Assembly: GCA_034440135.1 (NCBI GenBank)
Contig: JAWXBP010000358.1
Location: 1-48,948, forward strand
Direction: 5' to 3'
Length of the DNA stretch: 48,948 nt
Origin: Planctomycetia bacterium
Lineage (GTDB): Bacteria > Planctomycetota > Planctomycetia > Pirellulales > JALHLM01
The notes beneath the pieces were generated by a model. That model searched no databases. It was not told where the DNA came from and saw nothing but the letters and a program-made list of their open reading frames with translations. Below are positions 26,168-42,494 of this stretch, in pieces. The position numbers and the translations under genes were made by a program. Each line of letters opens with the position of its first letter. The stretch's first letter is position 1.

Positions 26168-29100
26168 TCAACGACGCCGGGCCGAATTGCGTCGGGCGAT
26201 GACGGACGTTTCGTCGGGATCTGCGGCGGACCAGCCGAGCAGGTCCGCGTTGCTTTGCCACCGCTCGACGACCTCGTCGACGGCGGCAACACTGTCAGCA
26301 ATTATCGAGGCCGCTGGTTCGGTCACCGGCGCCACGTTACAGAGGAGCTTCAAGCTGCCCGGGATCTGCGGTACCGGTAAAGCTAACCCCGGCGGCGTGT
26401 TTGTCACGACGTTGTCGGACCACATGAAGCGGGAGCATTGTACGTCGTCGAGAAGAAACTCGACGTCAAGCCCATTTACGAGGCTGGCGCTTTTTCCGTG
26501 CAGTTCGCTATCCATCAGCTTGAACGCCGCAGGCGCCATCCATTGAATTCCCGCGACCGAAAAGTGATTCAGAGAAAGGCTCTTTCCCGTGAAGCCGTCC
26601 CAGACGGATAGTTGTTCAATGGCATATTCTCGGTCGCTTGGTTTCGCATCGCGAAACCCTTCGCCGATGGTGACATTTTCCAACTCGATGGATTTGTAAA
26701 TGGGCTCGTCGGTTCGGCCTTCGAAGAACAAATTGCGCGCCAGCCAGGAATTGGTGATCGTGATCTCGCCGATTTGCTGCTTGGCGCCGGTCGGCAACGT
26801 TTCGATGGTGCCCTCAGCGACCCGAATCGAATGCAGCCGCGGCGACGTGTGAACAAAGCGACTATTGTCGATGATCATGTTTTCCACGGCGGCGAATTTC
26901 AGCACATTCCCTTGTCCGGAGACGGGGTCAATACCGTTGGGCCCCCCTACATCGAGGTTTCTCAACTCCACCTTGGTGATGCGCTTTTCGCTGTCCGGAT
27001 CGTCAACAGGCACCGGATCGATCAAGATCGAGGCGGGGGCGTCGCCTCGGCTGCAGTTCACCCCGGTAGTCTCCGTCGAGAAATCCAGCTCGTGGTCGTC
27101 GTCATTCCCGATGATATAGATCGGACCGCCCTCGATCACTTTGCCCCCGACCTCGTCCTCACTCGGCAGTTGCGCGCGAAAGCCGCGACAGCGATATCGC
27201 AAGGCCGCGATGTCATAGTAGTAGTTGTCTCCGCCGACGTTGCGGAACGCCGTATGGCCGGCGTCCAGCGAATCCACCGTCGAGAAGACGTTGTGGTCTC
27301 CCCGCACCAGGATGTTGATCCCAGCCGGCACGTTGGGGTCGGTCGTCGAATCCGGATGGTTCGCGGTGTTCTGCACGGTGAGGTTGCTGATCAGCAGTTG
27401 CTCCCCTTCGACGACCAATCCGATGGCCTTATTGGTGTGCGGAGCCGCGACGTTGCCATCGATCGTGATCCCGTCCACCCAGTTGATCGGCGTGAAGTCG
27501 TCGCGCATGGTCACGGTCTTGGTGATCGCCAGCTCGGGCACTTTCCCGCGAGGATTCACGGTGCTGTCGACCGTCAGCGTGGCGTACGATTTGGACCCCG
27601 GCGCGAGTTTGAGCGTGCCTTCGCCGGTCAGCCCCAGCGCGTAGCCGTGAAACAACAGATTGGCGACGAGGAATTCCCCCTTCGGGACACGGACGTGCGC
27701 CTCGCCGCGCGTACGTGCGTAGTTCATCGCGGCCTGAATCGCCAACGTGTCGTCACCGTCGTCGTTCGGAATAGCGCAATACTTGCGATCGTCTTTGCAC
27801 ACTTGCCAATTCGTGACGTCGATCACTTCGGCCGGCGGCGCGCCGGGAGTGACGACGCAAATGGATCCGAAATTATTGCGGACATTGTTCAGATCCGTGA
27901 TGTCGACATCCCCGTCGCCGTCGGTGTCGCCCAGGATCCCCAGACCGTTGGAGCCGAAATTGTTGCGGACATTGTTGAGATCGGTGATATCGACATCGCA
28001 ATCGTTGTCCGTGTCGCCCAAGACGGTGTCGGGCGGTTCTTGCTCGCGGATGAATTCCACGGCGCCGATATCAATCGAGTCGCCGCGCGGCGCTCCGGTT
28101 TGGTCGTGCGTCGGGGGGCCAGTCTCCTTCGTTCCCGCGCCGATCGCGGGGCTGCCTGCCAAGAGTGCGTGGGTCGGCGTCAGGCCGCCATTGTTCTTCA
28201 AATCTCCCAGCAGCGGATTGCGGAACGTGTAGTCGAAGACGTCCTCTGTACTGCGAACTTGTGGATTCACCGCCCCGGTGACGTCGCCGAACAGATTCCC
28301 GCCGTCGCTTTGCACGTTGCCACGCAAGTTCATGCCCTCGATCAGCTGCACGTTCTCGTATTCTTCGTGCCAGGCAACGTTTCCGGCCACGATGGAATTC
28401 TCGATTCTCACTGATCCGTCGTTGGTCGACTCCCCCTGGGCGTCGATGCCGCCGCCGGCCGTGTCGCCGCGAGCGGTATTCGCGTAAATGGTGCTACTAC
28501 TGACAATCGCCGAGGCGCCGGCGACCACGTAGATCCCGCCGCCCGATTCGCGCGACGTGTTCGTCGAGATCGTGCTGTTGATAATAGTCGCCGATCCCTC
28601 CGTCACCGCCAGTCCGCCCCCTCGCTTACCGGCCGAATTCTTGTAGAGCGTCGAACCCTCGATCGTCAGTTTGCCGCCGGACTGGGAAACGGCGCCGCCA
28701 AGTTCCAGGTCGACGCTATTGTCTTCGAATAGGCTGTCCTTGATCGTGACTTTGTCGGACGCGTTGTCCAATTCAATGGCAATCGCGCCCCCGCGCTTTG
28801 CGGCGCGATTCGAGCGAAAGATGGAATTCGTCACGGACAAGGTGCTGCGGGCATGTATCGCGCCCCCTTTGTCGCTGGTCGAGCCATTTTCCAACGTGAT
28901 CCCCACGATGGCGAGGCTCGCGTCAAGACCCACAGTAATCAAATTGTGTTGCTGGCCGGTCCAGTCGCCGCGAATGACTGTCGATTCGGGGTCGTCTATC
29001 GCGCCCTGCGATCGAATAGTGACGAGCTTGGTCGATCGCTCGGGCCGTTTGACGACGTTCAAATTGCCGCCGCGCAAATCCGCCGGATCCTGGCTCGTCA

Positions 29101-29326
29101 ATCCATAGGTGCCAGGTGGCAAAAGAATGAGATTGCAGTCGGCGTCGAGGTTCGATTCGAGAATGGCTTCCCGTAGGCTCATGAGGCCGTCGTTGGAGAC
29201 GACCGAATCTTCGAAAGTATTGACTAGGTAGGTCGTGGGATTGTTCTGGCAATCCATCAGGCGGCGAACTTCCAGGGACTCGATGCGCAGACCGCGACGA
29301 CGTCGAACCAGGCGACGACGAAACAT
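26168..29326 (-). CDS. Large secreted beta-helix protein with dockerin-like tandem
   Basis: This 1052-residue protein begins with a basic segment and RIESLEVRRLMDC, an LEPRxLL-type motif of planctomycete exported proteins. A CSLREA-type segment (LMSLREAILESNLDADCN) opens a first parallel beta-helix (about 45-425) of the polymorphic outer-membrane-protein style, with RSNRAAKRGGAI-like turns. Two nearly identical dockerin/EF-hand-like units follow at about 437-458 and 466-487 (GDTDGDGDVDITDLNNVRNN). A second beta-helix domain (about 500-1000) resembles pectate-lyase-type folds with no obvious catalytic site. The start at 29326 has GGGGG upstream. It may bind or modify polysaccharide at the surface; this is inference. 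Confidence 0.82.
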   Translation of the reverse strand: MFRRRLVRRRRGLRIESLEVRRLMDCQNNPTTYLVNTFEDSVVSNDGLMSLREAILESNLDADCNLILLPPGTYGLTSQDPADLRGGNLNVVKRPERSTKLVTIRSQGAIDDPESTVIRGDWTGQQHNLITVGLDASLAIVGITLENGSTSDKGGAIHARSTLSVTNSIFRSNRAAKRGGAIAIELDNASDKVTIKDSLFEDNSVDLELGGAVSQSGGKLTIEGSTLYKNSAGKRGGGLAVTEGSATIINSTISTNTSRESGGGIYVVAGASAIVSSSTIYANTARGDTAGGGIDAQGESTNDGSVRIENSIVAGNVAWHEEYENVQLIEGMNLRGNVQSDGGNLFGDVTGAVNPQVRSTEDVFDYTFRNPLLGDLKNNGGLTPTHALLAGSPAIGAGTKETGPPTHDQTGAPRGDSIDIGAVEFIREQEPPDTVLGDTDNDCDVDITDLNNVRNNFGSNGLGILGDTDGDGDVDITDLNNVRNNFGSICVVTPGAPPAEVIDVTNWQVCKDDRKYCAIPNDDGDDTLAIQAAMNYARTRGEAHVRVPKGEFLVANLLFHGYALGLTGEGTLKLAPGSKSYATLTVDSTVNPRGKVPELAITKTVTMRDDFTPINWVDGITIDGNVAAPHTNKAIGLVVEGEQLLISNLTVQNTANHPDSTTDPNVPAGINILVRGDHNVFSTVDSLDAGHTAFRNVGGDNYYYDIAALRYRCRGFRAQLPSEDEVGGKVIEGGPIYIIGNDDDHELDFSTETTGVNCSRGDAPASILIDPVPVDDPDSEKRITKVELRNLDVGGPNGIDPVSGQGNVLKFAAVENMIIDNSRFVHTSPRLHSIRVAEGTIETLPTGAKQQIGEITITNSWLARNLFFEGRTDEPIYKSIELENVTIGEGFRDAKPSDREYAIEQLSVWDGFTGKSLSLNHFSVAGIQWMAPAAFKLMDSELHGKSASLVNGLDVEFLLDDVQCSRFMWSDNVVTNTPPGLALPVPQIPGSLKLLCNVAPVTEPAASIIADSVAAVDEVVERWQSNADLLGWSAADPDETSVIARRNSARRR

Positions 29327-29432
29327 GAGGGACCCCCGAGTGAGTAGTGCGTGTCGGCGTGCTGGTGCTCTACACGCCGGGTACACTTTCCTAAGCGACG
29401 AACCGGGTTGCAAGTGGATTAAAAAAATTCAG

Positions 29433-33393: not shown

Positions 33394-36084
33394 ATGATGA
33401 GGCGGACACGGACGGTTTTTGTTGGGCTCGCGACTCTGGTGCTGGCTTCGGTCATTGTGCCAGCCAATCTCACTTCCGCAGAGCCGGCGCCCATGTTTTC
33501 GGCCGGGGCGGCCAATCTCGCCTTGTTGGCGCAAGAAGTGACGCCGGTCGTGACGGCGAGCAATGAGCAGACATTTGTGATCGTCTGGGCGTTCTGCTTC
33601 ATCGCGTCCATCGTGGCGTTGATTCAGGCGTTTCGCTTCTACAAGGAGATGATGGCGTCGGACGAGGGAACGCCGCTGATGATCGAGATCGCGGGATATG
33701 TCCGCGAGGGTGCAAATGCCTATTTGACCCAACAATATAAGGTAGTGGCCGTCTTTTTCGCCGTGATTTGCGCGCTGCTCGCGTATGCCGCCTTTGGCTT
33801 GGGCGTGCAAAGCAAGTTCGTGCCGTTCGCCTTTCTGACGGGCGGATTCTTTTCGGGCCTTGCCGGCTGGTTCGGCATGAAGACCGCCACTTGGGCGAGC
33901 AGTCGCACTGCCGCCGGTGCGCGAAAGTCGCTGAACCAAGGCCTCCAGGTCGCGTTTCGCTCGGGCGCCGTGATGGGTTTGACCGTTGTCGGCTTAGGTC
34001 TGCTCGATATCTGCCTGTGGTTCGCGATCCTCTATTGGATCTGGCCGCAAATTACGGGAGAGACCATTTCTCTCGCCGAAATTACCGTCACGATGCTGTG
34101 CTTCGGCATGGGCGCCAGCAGCCAGGCCTTGTTCGCAAGAGTCGGCGGCGGCATCTTCACCAAGGCCGCGGATGTCGGCGCCGATCTCGTGGGTAAGGTT
34201 GAGCAGGGCATCCCCGAAGATGATCCACGCAATCCGGCCACGATTGCGGACAACGTCGGCGATAACGTCGGCGACGTGGCCGGCATGGGCGCCGACTTGT
34301 ACGAATCGTATTGCGGCTCCATTTTGGCTACAGCGGCTCTCGGCGTAGCAGCCTTTGCCAGCGGCGAATTGCTGACCGGCGATGGCAGCATGAGCGTCGT
34401 GGAAGCCCAATTGCGCACACTGTTTCTGCCGATGTCGATCGCGGCCGTCGGCATCTTTCTGTCGATCGCCGGTGTTTACACTGTGCGTACGGAGGAGTCC
34501 GCCACTCAAAAAGTGCTGCTCCAAGCGCTGGCTAGGGGCATTAATCTGTCGACGTTTTTGGTGATGATCGCGGCTATTGGCCTTGCCTGGTGGCTCATGC
34601 CGCCGATCCCGGCCGCCATGGTCTATGGCGTGCCCGGCGTAGCCTTCAGCGTGATCGTTGGCTTGTTGGCCGGGTGGTTGATTGGCAAGTGGACCGAGTA
34701 CTGCACGAGCGACGAGTACAAGCCAACTCAAGAGCTTGCCGCGCAGGCCCTGACCGGCCCGGCGACCGTGATCATCGGCGGCATCGCCGAAGGCATGATG
34801 AGTACCTGGTTCCCGGTGATGGTCGTCTCCGCCGCGACGATTCTTTCGTTCGGCTTTACGAACGGCTGGAATTTCACCGACATGAACTATTTTGCCCTCG
34901 GCCTGTACGGCGTGGGCATCTCCGCGGTCGGGATGTTGAGCACGCTCGGCATCACGCTCGCGACGGACGCGTACGGACCGATTGCCGACAACGCCGGCGG
35001 CAATGCCCAGATGGCCGGACTCGAAGAGCAAGTCCGCGAGCGGACCGATGCGCTGGACAGCCTCGGTAATACCACGGCCGCCACGGGCAAGGGCTTCGCG
35101 ATTGGTTCCGCGGCGCTCACCGCGCTCGCACTACTGGCCGCTTACGTCGAGGAAGTGCGGATCGGCTTCGAGCGTTGGGGCGAAAGCGTGTTGACCGTAG
35201 ACGCAGAACCGGGCTTCTACAAGGTTTCCAATCAGTTCATCCTGCGCGCCAAGGAAGGCGAGTTCAAGACTCCCGCGGAGAAGTTCGAAAAGTACCTCGC
35301 GATTCCCACGCACGTGCGGCATCGCGCCGTCAGAGAAGCTTGGGAAAAGGTTTCGTTCTCCGGCGCTCCGGGACGTGTGCCGGACGGAATTCTCGAACAA
35401 TTCGAAGAAGATGGCGTCACGAAATCGCGATTTGTCGCCAGCGGCGATGAATTGATCGAAGTGCATCGCGCGACGTTGCCGGAGTTCGCGACCTACTACG
35501 ACGCCTCGCTGATGAACCCCAAAGTGCTGGTGGGGATGTTCGTGGGCTCGATGTCCGTGTTTGTCTTCTGTGCGATGACGATGAAGGCCGTGGGTCGCGC
35601 CGCCAAAGGCATGGTCGAAGAGGTGCGCCGGCAATTCAAGGAAAACCCGGGCATCATGCTTGGCACCTCCAAACCGGATTATTCTTCGCCGGTGGCGATC
35701 AGCACCAAAGCGGCTCAAAGGGAGATGATTCTGCCTTCGTTGCTGGGCCTGGTTACGCCCGTTGTCGGTGGCCTGCTGCTCGGCGTCGCTGGCGTGATGG
35801 GCATGTTGGTGGCTGGACTGACGACGGGCTTCTGCGTGGCCATCTTCATGGCCAATTCCGGCGGCTCCTGGGATAACGCCAAGAAGTACATCGAGGCTGG
35901 ACACCACGGCGGCAAAGGCAGTCCCGCACACGCCGCCGGCGTGATCGGCGATACCGTCGGCGATCCGTTCAAGGACACGAGCGGTCCGAGCTTGAATATC
36001 CTGATCAAGCTGATGAGCATGGTGAGTGTTGTGGCCGCAGGGCTCATTGTTCGCTACAGTTTGTTCGCGATGGGTATTTTCTAA
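33394..36084 (+). CDS. hppA: Membrane-bound ion-pumping pyrophosphatase (K+-dependent type)
   Basis: The enzyme uses pyrophosphate hydrolysis to pump H+ or Na+ across the membrane. Signatures: [20 protein letters not shown] (substrate site), [20 protein letters not shown], and [20 protein letters not shown] near the end. Ala and Gly in [10 protein letters not shown] (residues 562 and 565) are the K+-dependent pattern. The Glu in ADLYES is at the position found in Na+-pumping and some K+-dependent H+-pumping types, so the ion is not settled. At 896 residues it is longer than usual: an N-terminal signal-like segment precedes the first helices, and residues about 588-700 are an extra hydrophilic insert. 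The ATG at 33394 has GAGGGGG about 8 nt upstream. Confidence 0.95.
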
Positions 36085-36337: not shown

Positions 36338-39300
36338 ATGTCCGATGCACGGCGATCGCGGCCTGCCCGACAACCGAATTGGCGTCCGGGAAGTCAACAG
36401 GAAGTCCATCCTTGGAAGCGCTGGCTTAACCGCCTGGGCTGGACGGCCGTCGCGGGCTGCCTGGCGGGGCTATTCGTGTGGCTGCTGTGGCCTCGGCCGG
36501 TCACCCCGACGGTGTTCGCTTCGATCGTAGTCAGCGACGTCGACGCGGGGCAACTCACAACGCCCGCCTTCGCCAACGCGGATGCGGAGCGCATGGCGCA
36601 ATTGCCTTGGACCAAAAAGCTTATCTCGCAAGACGGAACATTCAACGCCAACGACAAACGCGAGGTTGGTCCCGCCGAGGGCGTGCTGGTCTGCTACATC
36701 GCGGGGCACATTGCGACGCGGCTCGTTGATGGATCGCCTCAACTGGCGTTACTTTCGACGGACTACAGCCAAGCAAGGCTCGCGGACTTCGTGGACAACG
36801 CGCCCCATGGACCGGCCACGCCGTTGCGCGAGTTGCTGCAATCGATCGCGACGCAGTCGTACGCCACCAAGATCGTCCTGCTCGATAGTCCGCGCGCGAG
36901 CGCGGAGCCCTGGTTGGCGGTGGCACAGGCCGATTGGGCTGTCGCGCTCAAATCCGATGTGGAATCCGTCGAATCGGATAGTCTTTGGGTGATCTGCGCC
37001 GGGCCCAGCAATACGCAGTCGCGCATCAATCATCGACTTCGCGGTTCGGTGTTCATGGAGCAGGTTGGCGAAGTCCTACGAGAGAAGCACGCCGCGAATA
37101 AAAATGGTCGGGTTGATCTTCAGGATCTCATGACGCGACTCACGCAGACGCTCGGAGCGTCGCCGGTCGTCGTCACACGAAGCCAGGTTGATCCCGCCGA
37201 GATTTCGCTGCCGGTGGAGTTTACGCAAGCTGCCGCAAAGGTCGTGGAGCCAGTGCCGGAGAAGAAGAAAGAGGAGGAAGGCGCGGCCGAGAAGCCAGCG
37301 GAACCCGTTAAGCCGGTGGAGCCCAAGGGGGACGCGGTTTGGCTCGCGCACGACTACCTGTTGGATGTGGGCCAGCAACTAAAGGCGTCGCCGCTGGATT
37401 ATGCGCCGGCGTCGTGGCGCGAATTGCAAGAAGTGTTGGTCTGGAGCGACTGGCGTCGTCACACCGGCGGCGAGGTGGGCGACGGGCCGCTGGAATCGTC
37501 GTTTCTCGCCGTCAAGGACGCCATCGGCCAGGCAGCCATCGGAGAGTCCAACGACAAGGATTTCACGGAAGATGCGCTGCGGGCCTTCCCCGCTGCGATT
37601 CGGAACTTCCAGCGTACGCGAAAAGAGTTGTGGAGCGATGCGCCGAAGACCTATTTGACCGCGGTGCGGCGCCGCAATTTGCTGTTGTCGAGGCTGCCGG
37701 ACTATTGGCGGTGGCAAGCCGCTTGCGGCAGATTTGAAGCGCAGCAGTGCGACAAGGATATAATCGCATTGAAGACACTTTGCGACGCGATTCAAGACTT
37801 CGAAGGGCAGGACGACCGCTCCCGTGCGGAAGACATTCCTGGGCAAGCGAACGTGGCCGAAGTCGACGCCTTGTTAGCCAAGGTGACGACCGACATCCAG
37901 CAGGAAGTCTCCAGCCTCTATACGACGCACGGTAGTGCTGCCGCCGCTCCGCTGACGGCGGCTACGCAGCATCGCATGGAACAACTTCTGTTGACGCCGC
38001 TGCCGAGCGCGGCGGATCGCGAGCTGCTATGGAAAGTGCTTAAGGAAGCAGAAATCGCGCCGAGCGTTGGTGAAGAAAACGTAGCAATCGCGATGCCAAC
38101 GTCCGTAGCCGGAGATCAGGCGGAGATGGAGGCCCGCTGGGCGAGATTTACAGTGAGCTTGATTCAGGACGGCAACGCCGACGACAAATTGCCCGCGCTG
38201 GCGTCGCAATTGACCGATTCGGCCGCTATGGCGACGAGCCTCGATGAGTGCGCGAAGTTCGTGCGTCTGCTTTCGGAATATCGCACACTGCTGAAATCGC
38301 GGATTCAGTCTGCCCCGCGCAGCGGTAGCGAGGAACTCTTGGCGCGTGCCGGAGACGCACAGCTGGAACGCGACGACAGCGAAGGCGGCATGGCGCCGCT
38401 TAAAAAATGGAATCGGCAGATCACCTTGAAACTGAAGCCGGAATCGCTGGACTTCAGCAACGACACCGTGCTGCAATTCACGCTGGACATCGTCGGGGCC
38501 AGCCACTCGAACACAAATTCGTTGCGATTCGTCGAGATTCCGCCGCAGCTAAAGTTGAGGCACGGCGATTCCGATGTGAGGCCCGAAGATGTCGTATTGT
38601 CCAAAGATCAACGCGTCACGTTGACGGCCACGTATTTGGGCGAGCCGCCAAAGTCCGGGCTGATTCGATTGGTCGTGATTGCCCAGTCCAAGAGTGCTGA
38701 GAATCCTGACCGAGCGGTGGAACTGAGCGCGGAAACTCCGATACCGGTAAAGCTTCCGGCCAAGAGCGCGTTCGCCTTGGTGCGATTGAGTGAGAATTCG
38801 CTGGTTCGCGAGGCGCGCGAACCGTCCTCCGCCTCGGGCGATCGCTGGCTGACCGGAGTGCGGTTGCTGGCGCATCCCAACGACGATTCCGTGTACGACA
38901 TCGGCCTCAGCCGAACAGCCGGTCCGCGCGCCGACGTGAAAGTCGAACTCTATGCATTGAAGGACAAATGGAGTCGGCGGTCGGATGTTCCTTTGACGGT
39001 GGACGCTCTCCAGCGCGACGCGGTAAAGCTAGGAGTCAGCGCCGTCGTGGAACCATCGGGGGAATCAGGCGCACTTAAGTTTAGCCTCGCCGGCGCCGCG
39101 CCTGACGCACTGATGGACGCCGCCGCTACGACTCCCGTCCCGCCTCCCGCTGCGCCCAAGGAAGTGGACTTGCCGTCGCTACAATTAGTGGCCGTGATCA
39201 CCGAAACGAAGGCCGGAGGCGGCGTGGAACATCATCTCGAATGGCTCGGCATCGAACCCTTGCATCCTGATCAGTTCGTTGACGCGGAGGCCGAACAGCC

Positions 39301-40687
39301 TCGCGAAGACGACGGTATCCAGCTACTGCCGTTCAAGCTCAGCTTTGCCGAAAACACACAATCGCCGACCGACTTGCCGCGCGGCGCCGTGTTTGTGAAG
39401 TTGGGTGAGACCAACGATCTCAGCCCTGCCGTTAAAGGGTACGATTTCAGCAGTACTGAGTTACCGAAGGATGGGCTGAAACCAGCTTTGCGCTTCGATC
39501 CGACCTTGGCCAAGGATGGCGAAGGGCTCGTATTTCTTGACGTCGCGAACTACCCTCGGTCCTTCATTTGGCAGTTGCCCGACAATCGGGATTTAAGCCG
39601 CAGGATGCCAAGAGTGCTTGTTGAGGAGCGAATTCACGTTCGCCAGCCACGCGCTTCGACTTCCGCAGAGTCGCTGCCCGGACAACTCGAGTTCGTGGGT
39701 AGGCCGACGGAGCCGATCGTAGTGCAGATCGAAGTCGACAACGTGGCCAGCGAAAAGACAGTGGAAATCGGCCTGCGAAAGACCAACGGCACGGTGATCG
39801 ATGCGCATCAGGTGCGCGGCTCGCGAAGTTATCGTCCGCTGCTTAAAGTCGAGGAAGAAACAGGACGGCTCATCATTCACTGTGATGTTGCCGACTTTAC
39901 GTTCGCGCTCCAGCCCGGCGGTACTGACGGGGAAGCGGAAATCTACGCGACTGTGCTGGGGGAAGACCATTCCGACGGGCCCGCGCTAAGCGATATTGTG
40001 CGCGGTGTCTTGGACGGGACGGCGCCAAGGCTCCCCAATGTGGATCCGGACGTGCCGATCCGCAGAACATCATTGCCCGATGAGCCTGTCATCGTCGAGG
40101 TCAGCGCCGAGGACACGTTGAGCGGCCCGAAATTGCTGGAATACTGGATGCCCGGCTCCCCCAAGCCCGTGATTACGGAGGGCGCGGCCGAACCCAAGGG
40201 GCAAGAAATCTTTGCCCAATTGAATAGCTCTAGCGGGGACGGGTATCGGTTTTACGATTTTCAACTGCAGTTCAACGAATTGAAGGCTGGCGATGCGAAG
40301 GTTTACCTGCGCGTGCAGGACTTCGCCGGCAATTGGTCGCCTCTGACTTCATTGACGATCAGACACAAGTCGGCGATGGCGGCCGCTGCCGAAAAGACTC
40401 CCCAGCCCCGCGACGTGCGGCTCAAGGTCACCTACAAACGCGGCAGCGAGAAAGTGCCCGTGCGGAATCCGACGGCCACGATCATGGGACCGGGCGATCT
40501 ACCTGGCGCCTCGGCAAAGGGAGATACACAGGGCGTCGTAGTGCTCAAGCAACTTCCGCCCGGCCCGCACAAGATCATCGTCGCCGGTCGGCCGCGCAAT
40601 GCCGGCGAAGTCAAGAAGGAGGAAACGGTCGAAGTGCCCGACGACGGCCAGAAAACCCCGATCGAACACGAGGTTTCACTGGATTAG
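36338..40687 (+). CDS. Large membrane-anchored protein with degenerate caspase-like segment
   Basis: This 1449-residue protein has one membrane helix (about residues 33-51), then about 230 residues with the order of a caspase-like domain. GVLVCYIAGHIATRLVDG has His124, KIVLLDSPRASAEPWLA sits at the strand where the catalytic Cys normally lies but has Pro185, and SLWVICAGPSNTQSRIN follows. A charged linker (EKKKEEEGAAEKP) leads to a long extracytoplasmic region of helical and strand-rich domains, including one with SAEDTLSGPKLLEYWMPG. The C-terminal domain (VRLKVTYKRGSEKVPVRNPT) resembles a regulatory beta-sandwich of the CarboxypepD type. Start: ATG at 36338. I recognise no overall family; the caspase-like reading is by pattern only. 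Confidence 0.65.
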   Translation: MSDARRSRPARQPNWRPGSQQEVHPWKRWLNRLGWTAVAGCLAGLFVWLLWPRPVTPTVFASIVVSDVDAGQLTTPAFANADAERMAQLPWTKKLISQDGTFNANDKREVGPAEGVLVCYIAGHIATRLVDGSPQLALLSTDYSQARLADFVDNAPHGPATPLRELLQSIATQSYATKIVLLDSPRASAEPWLAVAQADWAVALKSDVESVESDSLWVICAGPSNTQSRINHRLRGSVFMEQVGEVLREKHAANKNGRVDLQDLMTRLTQTLGASPVVVTRSQVDPAEISLPVEFTQAAAKVVEPVPEKKKEEEGAAEKPAEPVKPVEPKGDAVWLAHDYLLDVGQQLKASPLDYAPASWRELQEVLVWSDWRRHTGGEVGDGPLESSFLAVKDAIGQAAIGESNDKDFTEDALRAFPAAIRNFQRTRKELWSDAPKTYLTAVRRRNLLLSRLPDYWRWQAACGRFEAQQCDKDIIALKTLCDAIQDFEGQDDRSRAEDIPGQANVAEVDALLAKVTTDIQQEVSSLYTTHGSAAAAPLTAATQHRMEQLLLTPLPSAADRELLWKVLKEAEIAPSVGEENVAIAMPTSVAGDQAEMEARWARFTVSLIQDGNADDKLPALASQLTDSAAMATSLDECAKFVRLLSEYRTLLKSRIQSAPRSGSEELLARAGDAQLERDDSEGGMAPLKKWNRQITLKLKPESLDFSNDTVLQFTLDIVGASHSNTNSLRFVEIPPQLKLRHGDSDVRPEDVVLSKDQRVTLTATYLGEPPKSGLIRLVVIAQSKSAENPDRAVELSAETPIPVKLPAKSAFALVRLSENSLVREAREPSSASGDRWLTGVRLLAHPNDDSVYDIGLSRTAGPRADVKVELYALKDKWSRRSDVPLTVDALQRDAVKLGVSAVVEPSGESGALKFSLAGAAPDALMDAAATTPVPPPAAPKEVDLPSLQLVAVITETKAGGGVEHHLEWLGIEPLHPDQFVDAEAEQPREDDGIQLLPFKLSFAENTQSPTDLPRGAVFVKLGETNDLSPAVKGYDFSSTELPKDGLKPALRFDPTLAKDGEGLVFLDVANYPRSFIWQLPDNRDLSRRMPRVLVEERIHVRQPRASTSAESLPGQLEFVGRPTEPIVVQIEVDNVASEKTVEIGLRKTNGTVIDAHQVRGSRSYRPLLKVEEETGRLIIHCDVADFTFALQPGGTDGEAEIYATVLGEDHSDGPALSDIVRGVLDGTAPRLPNVDPDVPIRRTSLPDEPVIVEVSAEDTLSGPKLLEYWMPGSPKPVITEGAAEPKGQEIFAQLNSSSGDGYRFYDFQLQFNELKAGDAKVYLRVQDFAGNWSPLTSLTIRHKSAMAAAAEKTPQPRDVRLKVTYKRGSEKVPVRNPTATIMGPGDLPGASAKGDTQGVVVLKQLPPGPHKIIVAGRPRNAGEVKKEETVEVPDDGQKTPIEHEVSLD

Positions 40688-40847: not shown

Positions 40848-42494
40848 ATGGAATTCGCCAAGCGTATCGCGGTTCAGGTAGTGTGCCTGGTCGTGGTCAC
40901 TTCGCTCACGCAGTCCGCCGTGGCCCAACCGGCGATTCCCGCACCGGCGCCACCGACTTTGTGGAATTTCCTGGGCATCCCCAAGGGGTTCTTGGGGCAG
41001 ACGCGCGCTCAGATGGTCAACCGGCGCGGCAACCGCCCCGGACTGGAGAAGAAGCCCCCGCTCCGTAATCTCGCGGATCCCGCGAATTTGGAGCCTGAAA
41101 TGCCCAAGGCAATTCAGGAGGCTGCCAAAATCAAGCAGGCGGAGGACGCCGCGCCGCAGAAAATCAAGGCCATCAAGTATCTCGGCCAGATCGGCTGCGG
41201 TTGCTATCCAGGCGTGAAGGAAGGCCTGCTCGAAGCGCTCAGCGACTGCACGGAAGAAGTACGGTACGAAGCCGTGATGGCGTTCATGGCGGCCGCGGGC
41301 AACGTCTGCCAGGCCTGCAGCGAAACGTGCTGCGATGAGGAAGTCGTCGCCAAGCTTCGCGACATGGCCTTCGGCATGGACGAGCAAGGCTGCCCGAAGG
41401 AACCGTCGGCTCGGGTCCGCGGCGTCGCCGCCCAGGCCGCCCAGCGCTGCGAAGCGATGCTGCCGCCGCCGATGGAAGAAATCCGCCCGCGGTTGCAGGA
41501 ATCCGAGAGCGGACCGGGCACGCTGCAACAGCCTGAAACGCATTATCGCCGCACGCCGGCGCCGGGTATGAACGCCACGCGGCAAACGGCAATGCAGGCG
41601 ATTCAGCATCCGCAACGGGCGCTGCGATCGATCATGGACGCCGGCGCCGAATCGGCGCCAGTCCCGAACTCGCGTATCGCACCGCCGCCGATGCCGCGTG
41701 CCGCGGCGCTGCCGCAACCTTTGAGCGCGAACGCCCCGGCGCAAGGCGCGCAACATCACCTCGCGTCCCTGCAAGGACAGCAACCGGTGGTCGTCGCGTT
41801 GCCCAAGGTGACGCCCGACCGTCCCGCGGGCAAGATGCTTAAGGGCAACGTGTCCTGGGTCGCTCCTGGCGGCGGGAACTTCCGCCTCAGCTTTCCGGCG
41901 AATGACACGCCGGTTGTCGGCGAAGAACTTCGCGTTTATCACGACTACCTGACCGGCCGCAGGATGCTGGGCCGCGTGCAGGTCATCGGCATCGGGTCGG
42001 ACGGCGCCTGGGCTCGCCCGCTCGATAACTTCGCCCACGAAGTGGCGAGCGGCGACATGGTCAGCACCGCGCCGACGGCCGCGCCGATCGAAGAAGAAAT
42101 CGTGGAGACGAAGCCCGCTCCGGTGACACGCCCGAAGCCGGTCACGCGCCCCGCGACGTCCGTCGCGATGCCCCAGCGCCCTGCGACGTCGGAGGTGCGA
42201 GTCACGGACGCTCGCCCGGCGCCGCTGCAACAGCCGATCAGGACGGCCTCAGGTCCGCGCCCGGTGGTGGAAAAGCACCTGCCGCCGCGTCCGACCGTCA
42301 CGCGTCAAAGTTCGACCACGCGTACGGCGCCTCCGGTACGAATCTTTGACGCCCCGGGGACGTTGCCCGTCAAGAACCGCCCGATGCCGATCAATATGTC
42401 CGGCCGGTTGCCTAACACCCAACCGGTGACGCCTGTCGCGGCGGCCGCACCGGTCTGGGTCGGCGACGCCGGGAAGCAAACCAAGACGAAATAG
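40848..42494 (+). CDS. Secreted Cys-rich HEAT-repeat protein with Pro/Ala-rich tail
   Basis: This 548-residue protein has a signal peptide (MEFAKRIAVQVVCLVVVTSL, ending near AVAQ). HEAT-like helices follow in a region of about 110 residues: KIKAIKYLGQIGCGCYPGVK, LSDCTEEVRYEAVMAFMAAA and ARVRGVAAQAAQRCEAML. Between them is a Cys cluster (CQACSETCC). A low-complexity linker leads to a small domain containing KGNVSWVAPGGGNFRLSFPA and VGEELRVYHDYLTGRRMLG, and then a Pro/Thr-rich tail. Exported HEAT proteins often mediate protein contacts; the Cys cluster could bind metal or form disulfides. Start: ATG with GAGG 7 nt upstream; a frame starting earlier would lack a signal. A terminator follows. Confidence 0.75.
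   Translation: MEFAKRIAVQVVCLVVVTSLTQSAVAQPAIPAPAPPTLWNFLGIPKGFLGQTRAQMVNRRGNRPGLEKKPPLRNLADPANLEPEMPKAIQEAAKIKQAEDAAPQKIKAIKYLGQIGCGCYPGVKEGLLEALSDCTEEVRYEAVMAFMAAAGNVCQACSETCCDEEVVAKLRDMAFGMDEQGCPKEPSARVRGVAAQAAQRCEAMLPPPMEEIRPRLQESESGPGTLQQPETHYRRTPAPGMNATRQTAMQAIQHPQRALRSIMDAGAESAPVPNSRIAPPPMPRAAALPQPLSANAPAQGAQHHLASLQGQQPVVVALPKVTPDRPAGKMLKGNVSWVAPGGGNFRLSFPANDTPVVGEELRVYHDYLTGRRMLGRVQVIGIGSDGAWARPLDNFAHEVASGDMVSTAPTAAPIEEEIVETKPAPVTRPKPVTRPATSVAMPQRPATSEVRVTDARPAPLQQPIRTASGPRPVVEKHLPPRPTVTRQSSTTRTAPPVRIFDAPGTLPVKNRPMPINMSGRLPNTQPVTPVAAAAPVWVGDAGKQTKTK

Follow-up and report, generated by a model that had tools for sequence, protein, structure and literature searches.

Giant pseudo-caspase proteins that accompany type VI secretion in the Planctomycetia and might form the periplasmic part of its membrane complex

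A stretch of 48,948 nucleotides from a Planctomycetia bacterium of the order Pirellulales (contig JAWXBP010000358.1 of assembly GCA_034440135.1, referred to here as the window) encodes a giant protein with a single membrane anchor, a caspase-fold domain that has lost its catalytic Cys and a long C-terminal part. The family to which this protein belongs goes with the type VI secretion system (T6SS), both in its occurrence among genomes and in its gene linkage, an association that was no part of an earlier note on the gene made from the DNA letters alone. The T6SSs in question have a truncated TssM and, in nearly all of the genomes searched, no TssJ. We consider it probable, at roughly two chances in three, that the giants belong to a divergent T6SS membrane complex of the Planctomycetia as its periplasmic parts, where they would do the job of TssJ and of the C-terminal, periplasmic part of TssM (TssM-C).

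Distribution of the giants and of T6SS components

Relatives of the window protein were gathered by profile searches. Profiles were required because the single-protein query gave matches in only 8 of 97 genomes, its own included; run against the collected genome contigs, the same query found no relatives. Two profiles supplied the counts given below, the wider of which was built from 45 members, and a third family alignment used as a profile yielded 10 loci. The sample consisted of 396 genomes of the Pirellulales, in which TssK served as the T6SS marker and was present in 121 genomes and missing from 275. Matches to the first profile at E ≤ 1e-25 occurred in 63 of the TssK-positive genomes (some of them as matches cut by contig ends) and in none of the TssK-negative ones (Fisher 1.4e-39, phylogeny being ignored). 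The corresponding numbers were 74 and 8 genomes at E ≤ 1e-20, and 115 and 101 at E ≤ 1e-3, the weak matches in TssK-negative genomes being due to ordinary C14 proteins, which resemble the profile weakly. With the wider profile, giants (frames of at least 1300 amino acids, aa) were found in at least 50 of the 58 remaining TssK-positive genomes, as tallied by eye, and the two profiles combined place a giant in at least 113 of the 121.

The linkage between the genes can be described for these 113 genomes from the matches listed, with coordinates copied by hand. The giant and tssK share a contig in 87 genomes, and the distance between them is at most 2 kb in 34, at most 10 kb in 46 and at most 35 kb in 68. 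By chance, about 0.3 genomes would be expected to have the two within 3 kb (distances between match edges). All 34 giants that lie within 2 kb of tssK are divergently oriented to it. A first look at other orders and classes, in which the best 7 candidates per genome were scored, extended the pattern to the rest of the class Planctomycetia, where 15 of 16 TssK-positive genomes encode giants of at least 1500 aa and the sixteenth encodes one of 1313 aa.

The T6SSs that accompany the giants are themselves unusual. We sought TssM, TssJ and IcmF_C, the periplasmic half of TssM, in 80 of the 121 TssK-positive genomes of the order (the 63 with strong first-profile matches and 17 others). The N-terminal domain of TssM was detected in 78 of the 80, in frames that measure 404-822 aa where listed, except for one of 1045 aa in genome G391. 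All eight TssM proteins that were read whole, including the 528-aa protein of the window's own genome, end 2-11 residues past the last membrane helix. IcmF_C was absent from 79 of the 80 genomes in a six-frame search, by which we reject the possibility that the missing part is hidden in another frame, and TssJ (PF12790) was found in 1 of the 80; G391 is the exception on both counts. That genome carries a giant-type T6SS together with a second, canonical-looking T6SS with TssJ and a long TssM (contigs C250, C263 and C338), a combination that probably stems from recent transfer or contamination.

Beyond the order, IcmF_C and TssJ were both absent from all 16 TssK-positive genomes of the class. 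Outside the class, 5 of 7 TssK-positive genomes had IcmF_C (3 of these over the cut-off), 5 of 7 had TssJ and none had a full-size giant. The giants and the standard periplasmic parts (TssJ and TssM-C) are thus close to complementary, since T6SS-bearing genomes within the class have giants without TssJ or IcmF_C and those outside it mostly show the reverse.

Architecture and gene neighbourhood of the giants

The window gene (36338-40687, forward strand) opens with ATG and specifies 1449 aa followed by a stop codon, as the coordinates in the earlier note implied; the longest frame listed for it begins at 36026. No Pfam family, PF12790 (TssJ/SciN) included, matches the protein. The NCBIfam caspase model NF047832 matches residues 112-274 (E=2.5e-5, 23.8 bits), so that the caspase-like order of elements read into residues 115-270 is no mere coincidence; the excised region gave E=1.9e-6 and 27.5 bits, and both scores are well under the curated cut-off of 140 bits. 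An AlphaFold2 model of residues 54-308, built with 13 relatives, has a mean pLDDT (predicted local distance difference test) of 71.1 and a pTM (predicted template modelling score) of 0.76. In Foldseek searches of the PDB the top matches of this model were MALT1 and caspases (best match MALT1, E=4e-8), and VIA-align 2 aligned it best with caspase-7 (Z 17.3, root-mean-square deviation 2.9, 182 residues) and closely with a caspase-8:c-FLIP(L) entry (Z 16.5, deviation 3.0, 187 residues). Judged by its model, the domain is a caspase (caspase-haemoglobinase) fold.

The active site tells of loss throughout the family. The window protein has the catalytic-position His within AGHI (residues 122-125) and, in LLDSPRA (181-187), a Pro in place of the expected Cys, both as described in the earlier note. 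A profile alignment contained 57 distinct proteins of at least 1300 aa, of which 56 could be compared at the active-site columns and one does not have the column; all proteins of this size were counted, since a narrower class of giants excluded Cys-bearers by construction. At the Cys position 31 of the 56 have Gly and 14 have Asn; the window copy has Pro, and the one protein with Cys (at locus L078) has Leu in place of the His. The His is retained in 46 and lost in 10, and no giant among the 56 has the complete His-Cys dyad. Both residues are intact in 7 C14 proteins of ordinary size that were fetched along with the giants, and the alignment thus does find the dyad where it exists. The giants fall into paralogous A and B types, of which the A-type reads D-A/T/S-G at the site and the B-type often D-C-N-R, with Cys one residue early. 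The caspase pattern itself is widespread, in that 41 of 45 aligned family domains match NF047832 and 4 of 45 match PF00656. Because Cys is found in one of 56 giants, and there without the His, the giants are on the evidence of their alignment a pseudo-caspase family; the Cys column likewise rules out an ordinary metacaspase. The two checks that had been proposed for the pseudo-protease reading, structure prediction and comparison of orthologues, therefore speak in its favour, the fold being kept and the Cys lost family-wide. The acidic EF-like stretch noted at residues 254-264 (NKNGRVDLQDL) fared less evenly: the string is present and the family profile supports an EF-hand-like loop by matching EF-hand chains (E=0.0013), but the window copy is degenerate, with Ala replacing the first Asp ligand seen in relatives such as those at L009 and L014.

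In 55 of the 57 giants a membrane helix lies directly ahead of the caspase domain, and one of the other two begins at a contig end. The tail that precedes the helix is net positive in all 55, from which an N-in topology is predicted. In the window protein, too, a basic tail precedes what is by hydropathy the sole membrane helix, so that the membrane anchorage and the large periplasmic part envisaged in the earlier note fit the predicted topology. The motif W[RKQ] occurs in the N-tail of 50 of the 55, compared with 8.3 expected from windows in the bodies of the same proteins (a figure uncorrected for phylogeny). A conventional lipoprotein was considered for the window copy, whose helix contains a lipobox-like VAGC, but was rejected as the Cys is absent there in most of the relatives listed (by eye). 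In the B-type giants of one genus (L011:13721-18001, L012:3-4625 and L015:1-4617) the helix ends in a lipobox-like IIGC, which suggests that some B-type giants might be lipidated.

The C-terminal part of about 1150 residues was modelled poorly (pLDDT 52.9, pTM 0.37), and the model suggests helices followed by beta-sandwiches. The family profile matches domains of a solved PDB entry (E=1.5e-7), which we take to be immunoglobulin-like (Ig-like). CarboxypepD_reg was matched by 2 of 8 relatives and Big_13 by some relatives.

Table 1. Features of the window gene, its product and the gene downstream (positions in the window)
Feature	Positions	Strand	Basis
Giant pseudo-caspase of 1449 aa; type II (N-in) membrane topology predicted	36338..40687	+	
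Cytoplasmic N-tail motif NWRPG (W16-R17)	36377..36391	+	
Single transmembrane helix, residues 33-51	36434..36490	+	hydropathy
Pseudo-caspase domain, residues 54-284	36497..37189	+	NF047832 match, model, Foldseek, VIA-align 2
His124 (AGHI, residues 122-125), catalytic His position	36707..36709	+	
Asp183-Ser184-Pro185; Pro at the nucleophilic Cys (D-x-C) position of active relatives	36884..36892	+	
EF-hand-like loop NKNGRVDLQDLM, residues 254-265, degenerate in window copy	37097..37132	+	
Predicted helical region, residues ~332-681	37331..38380	+	low-confidence model
Predicted beta/Ig-like domain string, residues ~712-1449	38471..40684	+	low-confidence model
Downstream gene, start MEFAKR... (reads like a signal peptide), weakly similar to HEAT repeats	40848..42494	+	

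Neighbouring genes were compared across 48 loci (47 fetched plus the window), all of them picked for holding a caspase-type match. Named by Pfam, the genes beside giants encode TssK, TssL/DotU, TssM, VgrG, an FHA/DUF6931 protein and sheath proteins. The HEAT-like family represented by the gene downstream of the window giant adjoins giants in 19 of the 48 loci (L011, L070, L083 and others), frequently with one giant of type A and one of type B on either side; a weak match to rotamase was obtained for one member. The locus from a Stieleria strain (L097) carries a pair of giants.

The window's own genome encodes four giants (best 6 candidates per genome scored) and has TssK at two loci, on contigs C497 and C288. 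Contig C497 also carries genes for TssG, TssF, two TssC-type proteins, TssA, a sigma-70 factor and TssM; within it (L109:3710-9940, G000:C497) the two TssC-type (VipB) genes are adjacent and tssM has the sigma-70 family gene next to it. In L114, too, tssM is followed by a sigma-70 gene, so such a factor may be a constant component of this type of T6SS. Elsewhere in the window, a 1081-aa ORF (open reading frame) on the reverse strand (26168-29413) has weak pectate-lyase-like and Chlamydia PMP-repeat matches and is possibly a surface beta-helix protein.

Proposed role and alternative explanations

By analogy with the requirement for TssM-C in Citrobacter and the replacement of TssJ in Acinetobacter (see below), the missing periplasmic part is best sought among the giants. 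Their link with T6SS is a statistical one, from which we infer membership in a complex that might be arranged as follows. TssM ends directly behind its third membrane helix, no TssJ lipoprotein being found, and the giant would provide the periplasmic arm in trans. The short basic N-tail of the giant, with its conserved Trp, could dock in the cytoplasm on TssK, TssL, the short TssM or the baseplate, and would thereby bring the giants into contact with Tss proteins. Close to the outer face of the inner membrane, the caspase-fold domain would serve in binding or oligomerisation and not in catalysis, a role that, given the giants as the periplasmic part, would suit a domain that is dead yet retained. 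From there the helical and Ig-like domains would bridge the periplasm. The two paralogue types, A and B, would pair and jointly build the complex, often with the secreted HEAT-like protein encoded between them, which may belong to it as well.

There is perhaps an even chance that the T6SS of the Planctomycetia forms a class of its own. Its envelope conduit would then have been rebuilt from giant single-span proteins that work in pairs and carry a dead caspase domain close to the inner membrane; TssM would be split, an unrelated protein having taken the place of its periplasmic half, and a contractile injection machine would have put the caspase fold to structural use. If the proposed role is true, such a replacement of the membrane complex would mark out a new type of T6SS, a large family of giant proteins that lack annotation would gain a function, and the caspase fold would be seen at work in an injection machine, whether structurally or in binding. 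The question bears on how T6SSs traverse envelopes unlike the proteobacterial one, the planctomycete T6SS having hardly been described.

Several observations weigh against a periplasmic role for the giants in T6SS. Among the matches listed, 8 of the 121 TssK-positive genomes have no full-size giant (G147, G203, G268, G119, G201, G317, G342 and G356); all eight assemblies are fragmented, yet G317 and G342 are 98-99% complete. When the wider profile was run on 22 of the TssK-negative genomes of the order, the matches listed included a clear giant in G380 (1632 aa, genome 86% complete) and a borderline one in G003, and 1 of 23 TssK-negative genomes from other orders of the class also has a borderline giant (G707, E=1.2e-17). 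In two TssK-positive genomes from other classes of the phylum, G420 and G550, TssJ and giants both went undetected; there the periplasmic part may be supplied in yet a third way. The Fisher values take no account of phylogeny. No homology was found between the C-terminal part of the giants and the periplasmic part of one canonical-looking TssM (hhalign probability 0.3). Finally, Pfam finds no other T6SS gene among the ORFs scanned in the window; with no tss gene on its own contig, the window gene is linked to T6SS through its family and through the T6SS loci on other contigs of its genome.

The giants might instead be accessory sensors or regulators of T6SS, with the pseudo-caspase binding a ligand in the periplasm or the signal of an incoming attack and the cytoplasmic tail passing on the permission to fire. 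Pseudo-enzymes frequently act as binding modules, the divergent pairing of giants with tssK suggests shared control, and some giants are found tens of kb from tssK or on different contigs, all of which would suit such a role. We nevertheless regard it as rather unlikely, since a regulator would not be expected in at least 113 of 121 TssK-positive genomes, nor to accompany the loss of TssJ and TssM-C.

It is less probable still that the giants are envelope proteins functionally unrelated to T6SS, with the association reflecting shared ancestry and neighbourhood, as the position of the window copy near no tss gene and the lack of phylogenetic correction in the Fisher tests might lead one to suppose. 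Among the matches listed, there are six genera in which TssK-negative genomes have no giant and most TssK-positive congeners do: g73 (negative genome G220), g44 (G094), g30 (G100), g13 (G013), g8 (G008) and g71 (G112 and G116), the last of which also holds the giant-less TssK-positive G317 and G342. Together with the 34 adjacent and divergent pairs, where 0.3 were expected, and the recurrence of the pattern in other orders of the class, these genera argue for a functional connection. An active protease with a relocated nucleophile, such as the D+1 Cys of D-C-N-R in several B-type giants, is very improbable, as this Cys is not conserved (DAN, DTG, DSN and DSG also occur, and the window has DSP) and the His is gone in 10 of 56 giants.

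Comparison with known systems

Three papers simply note that T6SS genes are present, in Rhodopirellula in 2009 and 2017 (PMC2660368, PMC5394234) and in freshwater planctomycetes in 2019 (PMC6461901). A survey from 2012 gave the cysteine-histidine conservation among planctomycete metacaspases as 64% (PMC3501461). Searches of the open-licence PMC literature returned, judging by titles and the openings of abstracts, no paper that connects caspase-like proteins with the T6SS membrane complex in planctomycetes.

The giants share their fold with the caspase-like peptidases of clan CD (C14 and NF047832 caspase_w_EACC1), whose His is kept in 46 of 56. They differ from these peptidases in having no catalytic Cys, in their fusion to a membrane anchor and ~1150 further residues, and in their T6SS context. 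Bacterial pseudo-orthocaspases (PMC6426788, PMC7889975) are likewise described as caspase-fold proteins without the His-Cys dyad, with proposed roles in photosynthesis and oxidative stress. Those of PMC6426788 have Tyr for His and Ser for Cys, whereas the giants usually keep the His and have Gly, Asn, Pro or other residues in place of the Cys; the giants are, besides, very large envelope proteins that go with T6SS.

Compared with the standard TssJ-TssL-TssM membrane complex, the planctomycete systems retain TssL, the N-terminal part of TssM and TssK, all of them encoded beside giants, but their TssM has no periplasmic part, TssJ was not found and the giants showed no homology to the one canonical-looking TssM compared. 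An early-stopping tssM gene is also reported for Citrobacter rodentium (PMC4256274), where slippage yields a full-length TssM in addition, the C-terminal part of which is required for TssJ binding and function; in the planctomycetes, IcmF_C is missing from all six frames in 79 of 80 genomes. The non-canonical T6SS of Acinetobacter (PMC10564176) is reported to do without TssJ as well and to rely on lineage-specific envelope proteins instead. There TssM has evolved a new homo-oligomerisation domain and is assisted by the helper TsmK, whereas in the planctomycetes TssM has been cut and the candidate helper is the giant.

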